This document shows, one piece after another, positions 4,481 to 36,177 of a DNA stretch of 38,951 nt. Within the stretch, counting starts at the first letter, position 1, and every line of letters starts with the position of its first letter. This stretch comes from an uncultured Coriobacteriaceae bacterium. GTDB lineage: Bacteria > Actinomycetota > Coriobacteriia > Coriobacteriales > Atopobiaceae. The stretch is taken from assembly GCA_902766835.1 (NCBI GenBank), contig CACXFC010000089.1, forward strand, positions 1 through 38,951. The letters are read 5' to 3'. The notes below the pieces were generated by a model. It did not search any database. It was not told the DNA's origin and worked only from the letters and a program-made list of their open reading frames with translations. The translations under genes were made by a program, and so were the position numbers.

Positions 4481-5812
4481 GTGGCATCAGTTGACGAGCT
4501 CACCCTGCACATCGAACGCATGACCTATGGCGCAGACGGCATATCCCACACCCCCGAGGGCAAGACCGTCTTTGTGGCAGGTGGCCTTGCAGGCGACACG
4601 GTTCGGGCGCGCATCACGTCCGACGGCAGCTCGTTTAGCCGTGCCGAGGTAACCGAGCTTCTGGAAGGCTCCTCGCAGCGTGTCACGCCCGCCTGTCCCT
4701 ACACCGGCATCTGTGGAGGATGCCCCTGGGCCGCCATGAAGCGCGAGGCTCAGCTTGCGGCAAAGCGCGCCAATGTGGTCGACGCGCTGGTCCGCATAGC
4801 CCACTGGGATGCGCATGAGGTCGATGCGCTCGTCGCGCCCTGCGAGGCGCCAAGCGATGCCTGGGGATACCGCAACAAGATCGAGCTCGCCTTCCAGCGC
4901 AAGCATGGTCGAGCCATCATCGGCATGCATGACCGCAGTGGGGCCGGAGTCGTCAAGGTTGATTCGTGTCTGCTCCTCGACAGCCGCTACAAGAAGGTTG
5001 CCAAGTCCGTTGCCGGTGGCCTCACCTACCTCTCGGGCTCCCAAGAGCTGGGCATTGAGCGTGTGGGCATCCGGGCCTCGCGGCGCACGAAGGACGTGGA
5101 GGTGGCACTGTGGACCTCCACCGGCCCCTTCCCGCGCGCACAGGTGGCCAAGGTGCTCTCCGATGCCTGCAAGGCCAGCTCGGTCGTGCGCGTGCTGGTT
5201 AAAGGCCCTCAGAAGGCGCGGCGCGTTTCGGGCGTTGAGCGTCTGGCCGGAAAGGGATACTGGGAGGAACGTCTGGGAGAGGCGACCATGGCGCTGTCGG
5301 CTCCCTCGTTCTTCCAAGTGAACACCGCAGGAGCGCAGCGCCTTGTCGAGCTGGTGCTTGCGGGCCTAGAACCCGACGAGGACGACGAGGCCATGGATCT
5401 CTACTGCGGTGCGGGCACCTTCACCCTGCCGCTGGCCCGTCGTGCGGGATTCGTCTCTGCCGTGGAGTCGTATGGTCCTGCCGTGCGCGACCTGCGACGC
5501 AACCTTGAGCGAGCACGCCTCGACAACGTCGATGCCGTGGGCGGCGACGCGGGACGCGAGTTCCCCGACACCGATGCCGACATCATTGTGGTAGACCCGC
5601 CACGCGCAGGGCTATCCGCAGACGTGGTCGAGCAGCTCTCGGATCAGCCGGCACGCGCGATTGCGTATGTGAGCTGCGACCCCGCAACGCTGGCACGCGA
5701 CCTTGCGCGCTTTGCCGAACAAGGAACCTTCGCACCGTCAAGCATCACACCGGTTGACCTCTTCCCCCAAACCTTCCACGTAGAGACGGTCACCATCCTG
5801 CGCCGCAAGTAA
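4481..5812 (+). CDS. 23S rRNA (uracil-C5)-methyltransferase, RumA/RlmD (TrmA) family
   Basis: SAM-dependent C5 methylation of a uridine in 23S rRNA is expected; the exact target (U1939, U747 or both, as for RlmCD) cannot be told. Residues 1-60 resemble a TRAM RNA-binding domain. C72, C78 and C81 (CPYTGICGGC) plus a later Cys in VDSCLL fit the [4Fe-4S] cluster of RumA-type enzymes. The SAM site DLYCGAGTF begins at D306, followed by VVDPPRAG and the catalytic Cys399 in YVSCDPATLARD. At 443 aa it is of normal family length. The start is a GTG at 4481 with only a weak GGAT upstream, so the start is less certain than the rest. Confidence 0.9.
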   Translation: MASVDELTLHIERMTYGADGISHTPEGKTVFVAGGLAGDTVRARITSDGSSFSRAEVTELLEGSSQRVTPACPYTGICGGCPWAAMKREAQLAAKRANVVDALVRIAHWDAHEVDALVAPCEAPSDAWGYRNKIELAFQRKHGRAIIGMHDRSGAGVVKVDSCLLLDSRYKKVAKSVAGGLTYLSGSQELGIERVGIRASRRTKDVEVALWTSTGPFPRAQVAKVLSDACKASSVVRVLVKGPQKARRVSGVERLAGKGYWEERLGEATMALSAPSFFQVNTAGAQRLVELVLAGLEPDEDDEAMDLYCGAGTFTLPLARRAGFVSAVESYGPAVRDLRRNLERARLDNVDAVGGDAGREFPDTDADIIVVDPPRAGLSADVVEQLSDQPARAIAYVSCDPATLARDLARFAEQGTFAPSSITPVDLFPQTFHVETVTILRRK

Positions 5813-5864: not shown

Positions 5865-5936
5865 GATATGGCAGCTAAGGGACACGCCCTTTTTGCCCCG
5901 CGGGGCAAAAAGGGCGTGTCCCTTAGCTGCCATATC
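5865..5936. repeat. Perfect 72-bp palindrome between convergent genes (dispersed repeat copy 1)
   Basis: Two 36-bp arms are exact reverse complements with no spacer; the centre is CCGCGG at 5898-5903. The inner 50 bp (5876-5925) recurs exactly at 11851-11900. It lies between the convergent methyltransferase and S58 peptidase genes. It could act as a bidirectional terminator or belong to a REP/MITE-like family. It lacks the usual T tract after the stem, although it carries internal A and T runs. Confidence 0.9.
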
Positions 5937-5955: not shown

Positions 5956-6924
5956 TTATGCCAGGTCAGCGGCTGCCATGAGCCCCCGTGCTCCCTGAGC
6001 AGACCGCGCGGCATCCACAATGGCCTGCTCAAGGGCAGAGGTCGCCAGCATTCCCACGGCATCCACCTCTGCCTCAACCTCACCGGTTGCCATCACGAAG
6101 ATACTGTCGCCATCGTTTGTAGTGTGGGTGGGCCTGATGGCGTGTGCATAGGCGTCGGCAGCCATCTGGGCGACCTTGGTAGCCTGTGCCTTGGTCAGCT
6201 TCGCGTTGGTCACCACGCACGAGATGGTCGTGTTCGTGCGCAGCGGCATGGCGGCAGCAGCCTCGGCGAAGGCTTCCTCAACCGAGATGATGTGCGTGCC
6301 ATCAGAGGAGAGCACGCCTGCGACGAACTCGCCTGTGGCAGGGTCCACCACGTTGCCCACCGCATTGACGGCAGCAACGGCACCGCAGACCAGCTCGCCC
6401 GCATGGCAGACGCTCTCGCCAAGCCCGGTCTTCATCGAGCGCTGCGGGCCGGCAACCTTGCCCACCGTACACCCCGCTCCCGCGCCGACGTTGCCGCGCG
6501 CAAGCGGCTCACCCGCATGTGCAAACGCATCCGCCACCGCCTGGGCGCCCATCGACGCATCCGGTCGCACATGCGCGTCTCCGCACGCGAGGTCAAACAG
6601 GCAGGCACCGCTTACGATGGGCACCTTGGCAACCATCACGTCAAGGCCAATGTCGCGCCGCTCGAGCTCCTCGGCAACGCCGGTAGATGCCGCAAGGCCA
6701 TAGGCGCTTCCGCCCGAGAGCACCACGGCATGGAGGGCCTGCACGGTCTCCTCAGGGCGCAGCAGGTCGGTCTCGCGCGTCGCCGGAGCGCCACCGCGCA
6801 CGTCTACCGCACCAGTCGCCCCCTCCGGGCACACGATGACGGTACATCCCGTGGCGGCCTCTTCGTTGGTGGCATGCCCGGCATAGATGCCGGCAATCTG
6901 TGTGATGCTTTCGATCTTAGGCAT
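5956..6924 (-). CDS. P1 family peptidase (S58, DmpA/L-aminopeptidase-like)
   Basis: A member of the self-processing N-terminal-nucleophile aminopeptidases (DmpA and BapA relatives) that release N-terminal residues from small peptides. Visible signatures are the glycine-rich GNVGAGAGCTVGK (about 144-156), LSGGSAYGL (about 69-77), and RTNTTISCVVTNAKL (about 229-243). In the last of these, the first Thr of NTTI (about residue 232) aligns with the autoproteolytic Ser/Thr nucleophile. Length is 322 aa, within the family range. The ATG at 6924 follows GGAGGAACGAA. The first 8 bases overlap the end of maf, so the two are probably translationally coupled. The natural substrate is unknown. Confidence 0.88.
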   Translation of the reverse strand: MPKIESITQIAGIYAGHATNEEAATGCTVIVCPEGATGAVDVRGGAPATRETDLLRPEETVQALHAVVLSGGSAYGLAASTGVAEELERRDIGLDVMVAKVPIVSGACLFDLACGDAHVRPDASMGAQAVADAFAHAGEPLARGNVGAGAGCTVGKVAGPQRSMKTGLGESVCHAGELVCGAVAAVNAVGNVVDPATGEFVAGVLSSDGTHIISVEEAFAEAAAAMPLRTNTTISCVVTNAKLTKAQATKVAQMAADAYAHAIRPTHTTNDGDSIFVMATGEVEAEVDAVGMLATSALEQAIVDAARSAQGARGLMAAADLA

Positions 6925-7546
6925 TTCGTTCCTCCAATAGACGCTCTACCAAGTTGTCCTCGCCTGCCGCGGAAAGCCGTGCCATCTCGCGCACGACGCG
7001 GCAGGTGGGCAGGCCCACTACGTTGTCGTAGTCGCCCTCGATTCCCTTTACCAGAAGGCGTCCGGTTCCCTGTATGGCATAGGCACCCGCCTTGTCCGAG
7101 CACTCTCCGCTGCGCACATAGGCATCTATTTGGCCTTTAGTCAGCTCATAGAAGGTGACGTCGGTTGTCTCGACAAAGGAGGCCACCTGTTGCTCTCCCC
7201 CATCGCCCTGATAGATGATGCAGACACCAGTTGAGACATGATGGGTTCTGCCAGAGAGCTCGGCCAACATGGCTGCCGCCTCAGCGTCATCGGCGGGCTT
7301 TCCCAGGGCCTCGTCAGCCATCCACACGATGGTATCGGCCGCAAGGAGGTAGCCGTCTTTCCCCACGCCCTCAAGGTCGTACACATGCAGGGCCTTCTCG
7401 TGCGCCAGACGACACACCAAGTCGCGCGGATGCTCGCCAGGCAGGCGTGACTCGTCGATGTCTGCCGGTACGATGCGCAGCTTGAAGCCCAGCTTGGACA
7501 TCAGCTCCTGACGTCGCGGCGATGCGGAAGCAAGTATCACAGTCAT
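6917..7546 (-). CDS. maf: Maf-family nucleoside triphosphate pyrophosphatase
   Basis: Maf proteins hydrolyse non-canonical or methylated NTPs (dTTP/UTP or m7GTP type) to the monophosphate and can influence septation. The protein begins MTVILASASPRRQEL, with the SASPRR motif that is diagnostic for the family. It also has the internal LAADTIVW motif and the FxELTxxQIDAYV region. I chose the ATG at 7546 (209 aa) because it places the conserved N terminus first and follows GGGGAG; an upstream in-frame start would add 18 unconserved residues. The stop overlaps the peptidase start in ATGCCTAA. Confidence 0.9.
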   Translation of the reverse strand: MTVILASASPRRQELMSKLGFKLRIVPADIDESRLPGEHPRDLVCRLAHEKALHVYDLEGVGKDGYLLAADTIVWMADEALGKPADDAEAAAMLAELSGRTHHVSTGVCIIYQGDGGEQQVASFVETTDVTFYELTKGQIDAYVRSGECSDKAGAYAIQGTGRLLVKGIEGDYDNVVGLPTCRVVREMARLSAAGEDNLVERLLEERNA

Positions 7547-11098: not shown

Positions 11099-11131
11099 GA
11101 AGCCCCTGGCAAGGTCGGGGGCTTCTTGTGT
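11099..11131 (+). terminator. Terminator after pta
   Basis: GAAGCCCC (11099-11106) pairs with GGGGCTTC (11118-11125) around an 11-nt loop and is followed by TTGTGTG. It is a GC-rich hairpin with a moderate T tract, 25 bp after the pta stop. Confidence 0.6.
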
Positions 11132-11248
11132 GCGTGGCAATCCCCGGAGGATAGGTCAGCCGTATTGGGTAGACTCGTCTCTGTTTGCACGATACGGATA
11201 GGCGGGAGCGCCGACCAAAGCCGCACGCCCGCACAGAAAGGCACATGC

Positions 11249-11827
11249 ATGAGCAACGAAGGAAAGCAGGTCAGCGTCCATTACGTGGGCACGCTCGACG
11301 ACGGAACCAAGTTCGACTCCTCCCGTGACCGCGGCGAGCCGCTGCAGTTCGTCTGTATGGCGGGCATGATGATCCCTGGCTTCGACCAGGCCGTTCGCGA
11401 CATGGAGGTTGGCCAGACCGTCACCGTGCGCCTTGAGCCCGAGGATGCCTATGGTCCGCGCAGCGAAGATATGGTCCAGACGTTCAGGATTGCCGACCTG
11501 CCCGGCTCCGAGCACCTCGTTGCCGGCCAGCGCGTCATGCTGGGTGGCCCCTACGGCCAGCCCATCCCGGCGCTTGTAGCCCAGAAGACCGACGAGCTGG
11601 TGACCCTCGACCTCAACCACGAGATGGCCGGCAAGGCCCTCACCTTCGAGATCGAGCTGCTCGAGGTGGCCGATGCGCAGGAGCATCACTGCTGCGGCCA
11701 CGGGCATGGTCACGGTGGCTGCTGCCATGGCGAGGGCCACGACGACGGCGAGTGCTGCCACGGCGAGGGCCACGGCGACGGCGAGTGCTGCCACGGCGAG
11801 GGAGAGTGCTGCCACAACGAGGACTAA
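11249..11827 (+). CDS. slyD: SlyD-like FKBP-type peptidyl-prolyl isomerase with Cys/His-rich metal-binding tail
   Basis: A cytoplasmic proline isomerase and chaperone; SlyD proteins also bind nickel and help metallocentre assembly. The FKBP part includes VHYVGTLDDGTKFDSS, GMMIPGFDQAVRDMEVGQ and EDAYGPR, interrupted by the insert-in-flap chaperone domain. NHEMAGKALTFEIELLEV closes the fold near residue 145. The last roughly 45 residues are almost only His, Cys, Gly, Glu and Asp, with GECCHGEG units repeated, and form a strong metal-chelating tail. I chose the ATG at 11249 (192 aa) because the FKBP domain starts directly after it; upstream in-frame sequence looks non-coding. Related FKBPs share the core; the tail favours SlyD. 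Confidence 0.88.
   Translation: MSNEGKQVSVHYVGTLDDGTKFDSSRDRGEPLQFVCMAGMMIPGFDQAVRDMEVGQTVTVRLEPEDAYGPRSEDMVQTFRIADLPGSEHLVAGQRVMLGGPYGQPIPALVAQKTDELVTLDLNHEMAGKALTFEIELLEVADAQEHHCCGHGHGHGGCCHGEGHDDGECCHGEGHGDGECCHGEGECCHNED
11720..11803 (+). repeat. 33-bp tandem repeat encoding the SlyD tail
   Basis: An 11-codon unit encoding CCHGEGH(D/G)DGE occurs at 11720-11752 and 11753-11785, with a partial third copy to 11803. The two full units differ at only two bases, suggesting recent expansion and possible copy-number variation of the metal-binding tail. Confidence 0.85.
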
Positions 11828-11850
11828 GCCCCTCTCCTCTCATTGGAAAT

Positions 11851-11900
11851 TAAGGGACACGCCCTTTTTGCCCCGCGGGGCAAAAAGGGCGTGTCCCTTA
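11851..11900. repeat. Perfect 50-bp palindrome between convergent genes (dispersed repeat copy 2)
   Basis: This 50-bp perfect palindrome is base-for-base identical to the core of the element at 5865-5936 and again lies between convergent genes, slyD and pckA. The outer flank is partly conserved on one side (GTTGCC here, GCTGCC in copy 1), so copy 1 is the more complete version. It may end transcripts from both directions. Confidence 0.9.
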
Positions 11901-11925
11901 GTTGCCTAACTATAGGTGCCGTGAG

Positions 11926-13578
11926 CTACGCAGAGTGCGGGCCAGCCGCGCGCACCTCGGGCGACATGTCGGGATACTTCTCTGCCGCGTTGTCCTCGAA
12001 CATCTTGGCGAGCTTGCGGGCCGCCTTGTCATAGGCGTCCTTGTCGGTCCAGGTGTTGCGGGGGTTGAGCACGCGGGTCTCCACGCCGTCCACGTGCTGC
12101 GGCACGTCGACGTTGAAGATGGGGTCGCGCACGAACTTGGCGTTCTCGACGGAACCTTCCAGCGCGGCCGTAACCATCAGACGCGTGGAGGGAAGGTCCA
12201 TACGGGTGCCGACGCCATAGGGGCCACCGGTCCAGCCGGTGTTGATGAGGTAGACGCGCGTGCCCGAGCGCTCCATGCGCTCGCCGAACATCTTCGCATA
12301 GCGAAGCGGGTCGAGCGGCATGAACGGCTCGCCGAAGAGCGTGGAGAAGGTCGGCTGCGGCTCGGTGATGCCACGCTCCGTACCGGCAACCTTGCTGGTA
12401 AAGCCAGAGAGGAAGTGGTACATGGCGCTGTTCTTGTCAAGACGCGAGATGGGCGGCAGGACGCCAAAGGCATCGGCCGTGAGGAAGATGACCACGTTGG
12501 GGTAACGGCCCTGGCCCATGGCAGCCGCGTTGTCGATGAAGTTGATGGGGTATGCCACGCGCGTGTTCTCGGTGAGGCGATCGTCGAAGTAGTCGGGGTT
12601 GCGGGTGGAACGGTCCACGATCACGTTCTCGCAGATGGCACCGAAGCGAATGGCATTGAAGATCTGCGGCTCGGTGGCCGACGAGATCTTGATGGCCTTG
12701 GCATAGCAGCCGCCCTCGAAGTTGAAGACGCCGCCGTCGGCCCAACCGTGCTCGTCGTCGCCAATGAGCACGCGCTGCGGGTCTGCGGAGAGGGTCGTCT
12801 TGCCCGTGCCGGAAAGGCCGAAGAACACAGCCGTCTCACCGGTGGAGGGGTCCATGTTCGCCGACGAGTGCATGGGGAGGATGCCCTCCTCAACCGGCAT
12901 GATGTAGTTCAGAACCGAGAAGACGGCCTTCTTGATCTCGCCGCTGTACTTGGTGCCAGCCACGATGATGCAGCGGTCCTGGAAGTTGAGCAGGACGGCA
13001 GCCTCCGAATGGGTGCCGTGCTTCTCGGGGTCGAGCTTCAGGCCAGGAGCGGCGAGCACCGTGAAGTCCTGAATGCCGTAGTTGTCCAGCTGACGGCGCG
13101 ACGGGCGGACGAGCAGCTGGCGGGCAAACAGCGCCTGGCTCGCGCGCTCGCACACCACCAGGAACTTCCTGAACCAACGGCGGTCGGCACCGCCAATGGC
13201 GCGCACCACAAACAGGTCGCGCTGCTGCAGATAGTCAAGGACCTCTTCCTTCACGAGCTTGTAGTTCTCGACGGAAAAGGGCTTGTTCACCGGGCCCCAG
13301 GCAATCTGGTCGTGGACGTCGGGGGTGTCGACGATGAAGCGGTCCTCGGGCGAGCGGCCGGTGTACTTGCCGGTCTCGACCGCCAAGGCGCCCTTCGAGG
13401 TGAGGATGCCCTCGTTGCGGTTAAGGGCCTTCTCGACGAGGGTCGCCGGCGCGGCATCGACGATGATGGCGCCATGGCAGTCGACCAGGCCGCAGGCGGC
13501 GAGCTGATCTTGAATGGAGCGCTGGCCATGAGAGCGGATGGAGCGCACAAACGAACCAATCTGGTCCTGAATAGGCAT
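11926..13578 (-). CDS. pckA: Phosphoenolpyruvate carboxykinase (ATP)
   Basis: Interconverts oxaloacetate plus ATP with phosphoenolpyruvate, CO2 and ADP. In anaerobic fermenters it often runs towards oxaloacetate. The P-loop FFGLSGTGKTTLSADP (kinase-1a), the kinase-2-type segment HGWADGGVFNFEGGCYAKAI, ARKF-like basic residues and INTGWTGGPYGVGTR identify the ATP-dependent class rather than the GTP form. The 550-aa length is normal. The ATG at 13578 has a near-perfect AAGGAGGT six bases upstream; a longer in-frame version would add 34 hydrophobic and basic residues with no family support. The palindrome at 11851-11900 follows the gene. Confidence 0.95.
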   Translation of the reverse strand: MPIQDQIGSFVRSIRSHGQRSIQDQLAACGLVDCHGAIIVDAAPATLVEKALNRNEGILTSKGALAVETGKYTGRSPEDRFIVDTPDVHDQIAWGPVNKPFSVENYKLVKEEVLDYLQQRDLFVVRAIGGADRRWFRKFLVVCERASQALFARQLLVRPSRRQLDNYGIQDFTVLAAPGLKLDPEKHGTHSEAAVLLNFQDRCIIVAGTKYSGEIKKAVFSVLNYIMPVEEGILPMHSSANMDPSTGETAVFFGLSGTGKTTLSADPQRVLIGDDEHGWADGGVFNFEGGCYAKAIKISSATEPQIFNAIRFGAICENVIVDRSTRNPDYFDDRLTENTRVAYPINFIDNAAAMGQGRYPNVVIFLTADAFGVLPPISRLDKNSAMYHFLSGFTSKVAGTERGITEPQPTFSTLFGEPFMPLDPLRYAKMFGERMERSGTRVYLINTGWTGGPYGVGTRMDLPSTRLMVTAALEGSVENAKFVRDPIFNVDVPQHVDGVETRVLNPRNTWTDKDAYDKAARKLAKMFEDNAAEKYPDMSPEVRAAGPHSA

Positions 13579-13600
13579 GTAGAAACCTCCTTGTGAGACA

Positions 13601-13619
13601 CGTCGCAACGTGCGCGACG
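13601..13619 (-). promoter_or_regulatory. Small hairpin in the pckA leader
   Basis: CGTCGC (13601-13606) and GCGACG (13614-13619) can pair around a 7-nt loop, directly upstream of the pckA ribosome-binding site. This could influence mRNA stability or translation; there is no further support. Confidence 0.3.
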
Positions 13620-13664
13620 AACTACTAGTACAAGGGTATGCCAAAGCCACAAGAAGGCAGAAAG

Positions 13665-13685
13665 AGTTAACAAAAAACATTAACT
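13665..13685. promoter_or_regulatory. AGTTAA-N9-TTAACT inverted repeat upstream of pckA
   Basis: A perfect 6-bp inverted repeat with an A-rich 9-bp spacer lies 87 bp upstream of pckA and 207 bp upstream of the divergent epimerase gene. It has the form of a dimeric repressor or activator site, but no known consensus was recognised. Confidence 0.35.
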
Positions 13686-36076: not shown

Positions 36077-36177
36077 TGGAGCGGAAAACTCCCCGGCACT
36101 TAAGTGCTCCCGCATGCGATTGCGGACTCGTATCCGCACCCATGGAGCACTTAAGTGCCGGGGAGTTTTCCGCTCCA
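36077..36177. repeat. 101-bp inverted-repeat element with 34-bp perfect arms between convergent genes
   Basis: 36077-36110 and 36144-36177 are exact reverse complements. The 33-nt centre contains a further hairpin, TGCGGA/TCCGCA (36121-36126 and 36133-36138). Each arm also contains the 12-bp palindrome GCACTTAAGTGC. No coding frame is present. It lies between the convergent CDF and lipoprotein genes and is unrelated in sequence to the palindromes at 5865 and 11851. It may be a MITE/REP-like element or a bidirectional terminator. Confidence 0.9.

Follow-up and report, generated by a model that had tools for sequence, protein, structure and literature searches.

A lineage-restricted population of near-perfect palindromes in an uncultured coriobacterium, best read as REPINs with a cognate RAYT-type transposase

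REPIN–RAYT systems, as described in Pseudomonas and enterobacteria, comprise hundreds of extragenic inverted doublets with rare singlets, a cognate single-copy RAYT gene flanked by the repeats, and arms that vary symmetrically, i.e. by compensatory changes already known in REPINs (PMC3116915, PMC8049555); their transposase genes have been reported to be inherited vertically (PMC8049555). The REP/BIME elements of Escherichia coli, served by TnpA-REP (structure 4ER8; PMC8266576), are imperfect, GTAG-tagged hairpins with a conserved bulge, which lie outside genes and downstream of them, a bias already known for REPs (PMC3733652), form mosaics with other repeats and have been proposed to protect RNA 3' ends. 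A further branch, the TIRYT transposases and TIRtrons (PMC3733652), which has been equated with RAYT group 1 or TnpA-Y1 subclass 2.1 (PMC6006769), carries its transposase between long self-complementary terminal repeats without GTAG, which form dimers. These TIR families are moderately abundant in one account (PMC3733652), and in another no REP-like sequences were found near subclass 2.1 genes (PMC6006769).

The locus considered here lies in a stretch of 38,951 nucleotides (the window) from the draft genome of an uncultured Coriobacteriaceae bacterium. Direct reading bears out a perfect palindrome of 72 bp at 5865-5936, which the first-pass annotation had pointed out, with 36-bp arms that abut without spacer (GATATGGCAGCTAAGGGACACGCCCTTTTTGCCCCG followed directly by CGGGGCAAAAAGGGCGTGTCCCTTAGCTGCCATATC). 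Its 50-bp core recurs identically at 11851-11900, and both copies lie between convergent genes, likewise as annotated. The features are as follows.

5865-5936, no strand: copy 1, a REPIN-like perfect palindrome with 36-bp arms; the family unit covers roughly 5869-5931
5865-5900, plus strand: left REP half of copy 1; the half-REP of the family consensus folds at -20.7 kcal/mol
5901-5936, minus strand: right REP half of copy 1, the exact reverse complement of the left half
5877-5891, plus strand: inner AAGGG-ACACG-CCCTT hairpin in the left half, then a T-run at 5890-5894; mirrored at 5910-5924
11844-11906, no strand: copy 2, with 94% identity over 63 nt and the perfect core at 11851-11900
4481-5812, plus strand: left-hand convergent gene at copy 1, product presumably RNA methyltransferase-like
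5956-6924, minus strand: right-hand convergent gene at copy 1, product taken to be P1-family aminopeptidase-like
11126-11827, plus strand: left-hand convergent gene at copy 2, product presumably peptidyl-prolyl isomerase-like with a His-rich repeat tail
11926-13680, minus strand: right-hand convergent gene at copy 2, product which we take to be ATP-dependent PEP carboxykinase-like

A chance origin is excluded, because the 20-nt half-site AAGGGACACGCCCTTTTTGC matches four times in the window (at most three mismatches) and never in 100 shuffles, and because the 72-mer folds as RNA at -70.8 kcal/mol (z = -14). Two other repeats in the window may be recorded here: the His-rich tail of the 11126-11827 product is encoded by tandem repeats of 33 bp (window 11703-11822) at the gene's 3' end, and a second inverted repeat with 34-bp perfect arms and a 33-bp spacer lies between convergent genes at 36077-36177, its arm matching 17 times in the window's own genome and nowhere in 20 relatives.

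That the palindrome belongs to a dispersed family, as first proposed, is fully borne out. The half-site matches 662 times (328 forward, 334 reverse) in the window's own genome, a draft of 2.55 Mb in 291 contigs that is 90% complete, and the same pattern read backwards matches there not once; the converse outcome that the annotation had allowed for, a genome with no other copies, thus failed decisively. Within 732 kb of this genome, 110 inverted pairs stand against 20 singlets, but this sample is enriched for contigs already known to carry copies and its pair density is therefore too high; from the genome-wide half-site count, the whole genome has roughly 300 pairs. Hundreds of extragenic inverted doublets with rare singlets are what REPIN–RAYT systems show. 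Unlike in those systems, the population is limited to one species of the genus, with only 0-5 half-site matches in each of 17 congeners. Four congeners have one orthologous copy of the family in common, at an alpha-glucosidase/LacI junction; as an ancestral copy shared with the window's genome this candidate was rejected, since the LacI orthologue is absent there (best match 29%) and so is the neighbourhood of the copy. Neither Rfam nor viral contigs nor phage records gave a match, so that nothing points to an origin from a phage or to an RNA already in the catalogue.

The family unit measures approximately 62-68 bp and consists of a half-REP, a centre of 2-4 bp and the reverse complement of the half. 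The consensus of the half is GGGG[C/A]AA[T/C]TA[A/G]GGGACACGCCCTTTTT(T)GCCCC, or, in a variant notation, GGGG[C/A]AA[T/C]TA[A/G]GGGACACGCCC-T5/6-GCCC. Each half can fold alone, with an outer stem of 7 bp, an inner stem of 5 bp and the loop ACACG, so that the palindrome amounts to a head-to-head pair of REP-like hairpins; the full consensus unit folds at -65.6 kcal/mol. Beyond roughly 11 bases outside GGGACACG, left-right symmetry no longer exceeds chance, and the outermost GATAT/ATATC of copy 1 therefore need not belong to the element and is probably a chance or local feature. Matching beyond the unit ends is distributed approximately as expected by chance for 107 copies, and the idea that fold-back synthesis had extended the palindrome into its unique flanks was discarded, the extension lengths falling off much as by chance. 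One outlier among these copies (L082, near 10658) has an internal spacer and flanks that match in inverted orientation for 9 bp past the element, beyond chance; it is possibly an insertion into an existing hairpin. The annotation had also held such spacerless palindromes to be rare because of their instability, which does not apply to the present genome: among the 110 sampled copies, 49 run without interruption for at least 60 bp, and the longest reach 72 bp, a length that the window copy shares.

Arms are far more alike within than between copies, i.e. they are kept alike: over 19 nt, copies differ from each other at 2.03 positions on average and the two arms of one copy at 0.41, the 19-nt arms are identical in 84 of 109 copies, representing 30 different versions, and the T-tracts agree between arms in 88 of 92. 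This likeness may result from inter-arm copying at replication, from selection on the hairpin or from source copies that were already symmetric, and it parallels the symmetric arm variation of known REPINs. When only the symmetric ones of the 110 copies (L061-L120 and the window) are considered, the two most frequent arm variants, at a distance of 3 bp, form all four possible combinations in similar numbers (30/17/17/20). Some copies are part of larger structures. A composite repeat of GTCAAGTGCAGTGGTATACGAG, the palindrome and CTGAGTTAGCCGAAGCAGTCGCTAC is found in L096 (near 560) and L117 (near 5644), with about a dozen one-sided cases, and in L094 (minus strand, near 7403) the composite flank is kept with most of the palindrome lost. 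In chimeras in L067, L077, L080 and L092 the palindrome is joined to a GAATCGGGGACGGTCCTCG-type repeat, with CATCCGTGTGAA meeting ATTAAGGG at the junction; this repeat resembles those near a second RAYT gene, and the chimeras resemble the mosaics of E. coli BIMEs.

The first-pass annotation had further suggested a REP-like unit moved by a RAYT-type transposase and a search for a Y1/RAYT gene. This search yielded three genes with a Y1_Tnp domain in the window's own genome, one of which (G000:C189:2561-3316), encoding a transposase of 252 amino acids, has palindrome copies on both sides (L033 1304-1373 and 2230-2297), so that the suggestion is borne out at the level of gene linkage and mobilization itself would follow from it as an inference. 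The bracketing copies both belong to the commonest sequence class, in T-tract as well as centre, and are distinguished by the position that varies most often, where the left copy has T and the right one C; the two other Y1 genes each lie amid a different repeat family. The 252-aa protein matches Pfam Y1_Tnp above cut-off and the NCBIfam model 'REP-associated tyrosine transposase' with 59.7 bits, below its cut-off of 80 bits, and 14 homologues all share its catalytic motifs, HUH (H60, H62) and Y119---N123-P124, without change. Searching the PDB with the single sequence gave nothing; a profile search found E. coli TnpA-REP (4ER8) as the best match (E = 8e-5). The same structure is the best Foldseek match of an AlphaFold model (mean pLDDT 86), with 161 residues aligned by VIA-align at Z 17.0 and rmsd 3.0, i.e. 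the catalytic domain is the same; transposases of the IS608/IS200 type form the next group (Z around 11, at most 11.1). Thg1-like proteins at Z 7-8 were set aside as having a common ferredoxin-like architecture. Unlike the E. coli enzyme, which has 165 aa and lacks a C-terminal extension, the protein described here ends in approximately 60 residues of extra helices (190-248 in the model) outside the part aligned to 4ER8, which match HTH_7 and HTH_28 weakly and below cut-off. In named genomes the RAYT protein matched distant homologues only. The bacterium may be an actinobacterium of the Collinsella/Atopobium type, with which a Collinsella match of 30% agrees weakly.

Homologues of the RAYT, 52-61% identical, are present in the relatives G001, G006 (twice), G011, G017 and G022. 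Long near-perfect palindromes bracket the gene in G001, at one G006 locus and in G017, and single inverted hairpins do so in G011 and G022; the outer arms differ in each relative, and the inner hairpin retains a G-run and a C-run around a short loop. The G017 palindrome has 54 + 67 matches in G017, 2-6 in two other genomes and none in the rest, and another palindrome family is common to several congeners. Since the DNA beside the RAYT gene of the window's genome does not match that beside its homologues, the gene occupies different places in the relatives, in contrast to the vertical inheritance reported elsewhere (PMC8049555). Repeats and transposase are not strictly coupled, as a few congeners have 1-3 copies of the family without a RAYT of this type. 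Comparison with the relatives revealed no insertion or excision event and no exact empty site, their intergenic DNA being too diverged to show any.

In how it works the system is like REPIN–RAYT: every testable feature of membership was found except the GTAG tag. GT[AG]G is present at 29 of 214 hairpin feet compared with 50 of 632 in the background, a slight excess, and the element is thus not a canonical GTAG REP; its halves and centre, moreover, form a virtually spacerless perfect palindrome, unlike known REPINs and unlike the bulged REPs of E. coli. Absence of GTAG, long self-complementary repeats, an arm motif GGG(G)ACAC close to GGGGWSAS and the C-terminal extension of a protein of about 250 aa, with its weak matches to helix-turn-helix models, all point to the TIRYT/TIRtron branch (PMC3733652), which the element resembles and to whose subclass 2.1 the transposase may belong. 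Exact GGGGWSAS occurs in 39 of 214 arms and in the orthologous copies of the congeners (TAGGGGACACG), the common form being AGGGACAC. Measured against either published account (PMC3733652, with TIR families of moderate abundance, and PMC6006769), a family of about 300 dimers is large.

Given the copy number, the inverted-pair unit and a RAYT gene bracketed by the repeat, with homologues bracketed by palindromes or hairpins of their own, the element is best read as a non-autonomous REPIN that has reached about 300 copies in this lineage by means of a cognate HUH/Y1 transposase of the RAYT type (probability roughly 0.87); lineage restriction and catalytic motifs, too, are directly observed. Two REP-like hairpins fused head to head, nearly without spacer, would make the DNA read as a perfect palindrome. 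The RAYT, whose contact with the repeat is suggested by linkage, would cut the single-stranded hairpin, probably on the exposed lagging-strand template, and then copy or paste it; copies would persist at gene ends, where they would be harmless and might serve as hairpin terminators for both directions or protect 3' ends.

The positions of the copies relative to genes bear on this last step and on the most serious alternative, i.e. that the repeats were amplified or kept because they end both converging transcripts, mobility being secondary or past, to which we give slightly less than an even chance. Genes were called with a home-made program (640 genes; 85% of the sequence coding), and no pair out of 110 lies inside one; 44 are in convergent, 44 in tandem and 11 in divergent spaces and 11 at contig edges, with 92 convergent, 342 tandem and 96 divergent spaces sampled. 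Per kilobase of intergenic DNA this corresponds to 2.5, 0.87 and 0.35 copies, respectively (convergent versus tandem spaces, Fisher p = 6e-12). Median distances are 22 bp to a stop and 134 bp to a start codon, and in tandem spaces 40 of 44 copies are nearer to the upstream stop than to the next start, all of which suits a stable hairpin shortly after the stop codon that terminates transcription. Avoidance of genes and promoters alone, however, gives much of the same bias. The internal AAGGG/CCCTT hairpin is followed by T5-6, yet the sequence after the outer stem shows no enrichment in T, T-tract terminators have the same frequency whether or not the element is there, and T-runs in sister families are short or absent. 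Flanks at both window junctions contain no other strong stem, and several relatives have other hairpins at these junctions, the one orthologous to copy 2 being a convergent junction with other long inverted repeats in G008 and G011 (L265, L267). Another strong hairpin is present in 49% of element-free convergent spaces and in 30% of those with the element (scores, p = 0.0008), but a length-matched comparison is not significant (p = 0.14). Replacement of ancestral terminators, sought as shorter leftover intergenic DNA, was rejected, this length being the same with and without the element (p = 0.5). Of the bidirectional terminator considered in the first-pass annotation, the positions thus stand and a T-run after the outer stem does not; convergent preference and proximity to stop codons make terminator or 3'-end protector a likely candidate role.

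Protection of RNA 3' ends, in which the hairpin would block 3'-5' exonucleases without ending transcription, would be served by so stable a structure (-65 to -71 kcal/mol) at this distance from stop codons; the present data do not separate protection from termination. As a primary explanation we regard it as rather unlikely. Hundreds of near-identical palindromes would also suit a dimeric nucleoid-associated or chromosome-organizing protein, the former being another option of the first-pass annotation, but a lineage-specific sequence that is nearly absent from congeners is unlike a conserved chromosome site, and the strong downstream-of-gene bias and the transposase linkage leave this explanation very improbable. 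That the repeats are artefacts of a metagenome-type draft assembly, some of whose 291 contigs end inside an element, can practically be dismissed, as in 46 of 61 stretches copies are found within contigs and flanked by unique sequence, and as relatives, whose genomes are independent, have the same architecture built from different sequences.

Overall, the REPIN–RAYT kind of system is already known, and the population described here is a large new member of it: near-perfect REPINs together with an untagged, TIRYT-like RAYT that carries a C-terminal extension, outside the much-studied proteobacterial systems. The congeners, with homologous transposases but different palindromes, thus provide a natural experiment on how the specificities of transposase and hairpin change jointly, as well as on a possible takeover of transcription termination by mobile repeats. 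With 44 copies in the 92 convergent spaces sampled, one may speculate, at odds that we consider poor though well above negligible, that throughout the genus RAYTs repeatedly reseed gene ends, each species having its own RAYT and palindromes, which would now be working bidirectional terminators at a large proportion of convergent junctions. If so, transposon activity would renew part of a genome's set of terminators from one related species to the next.
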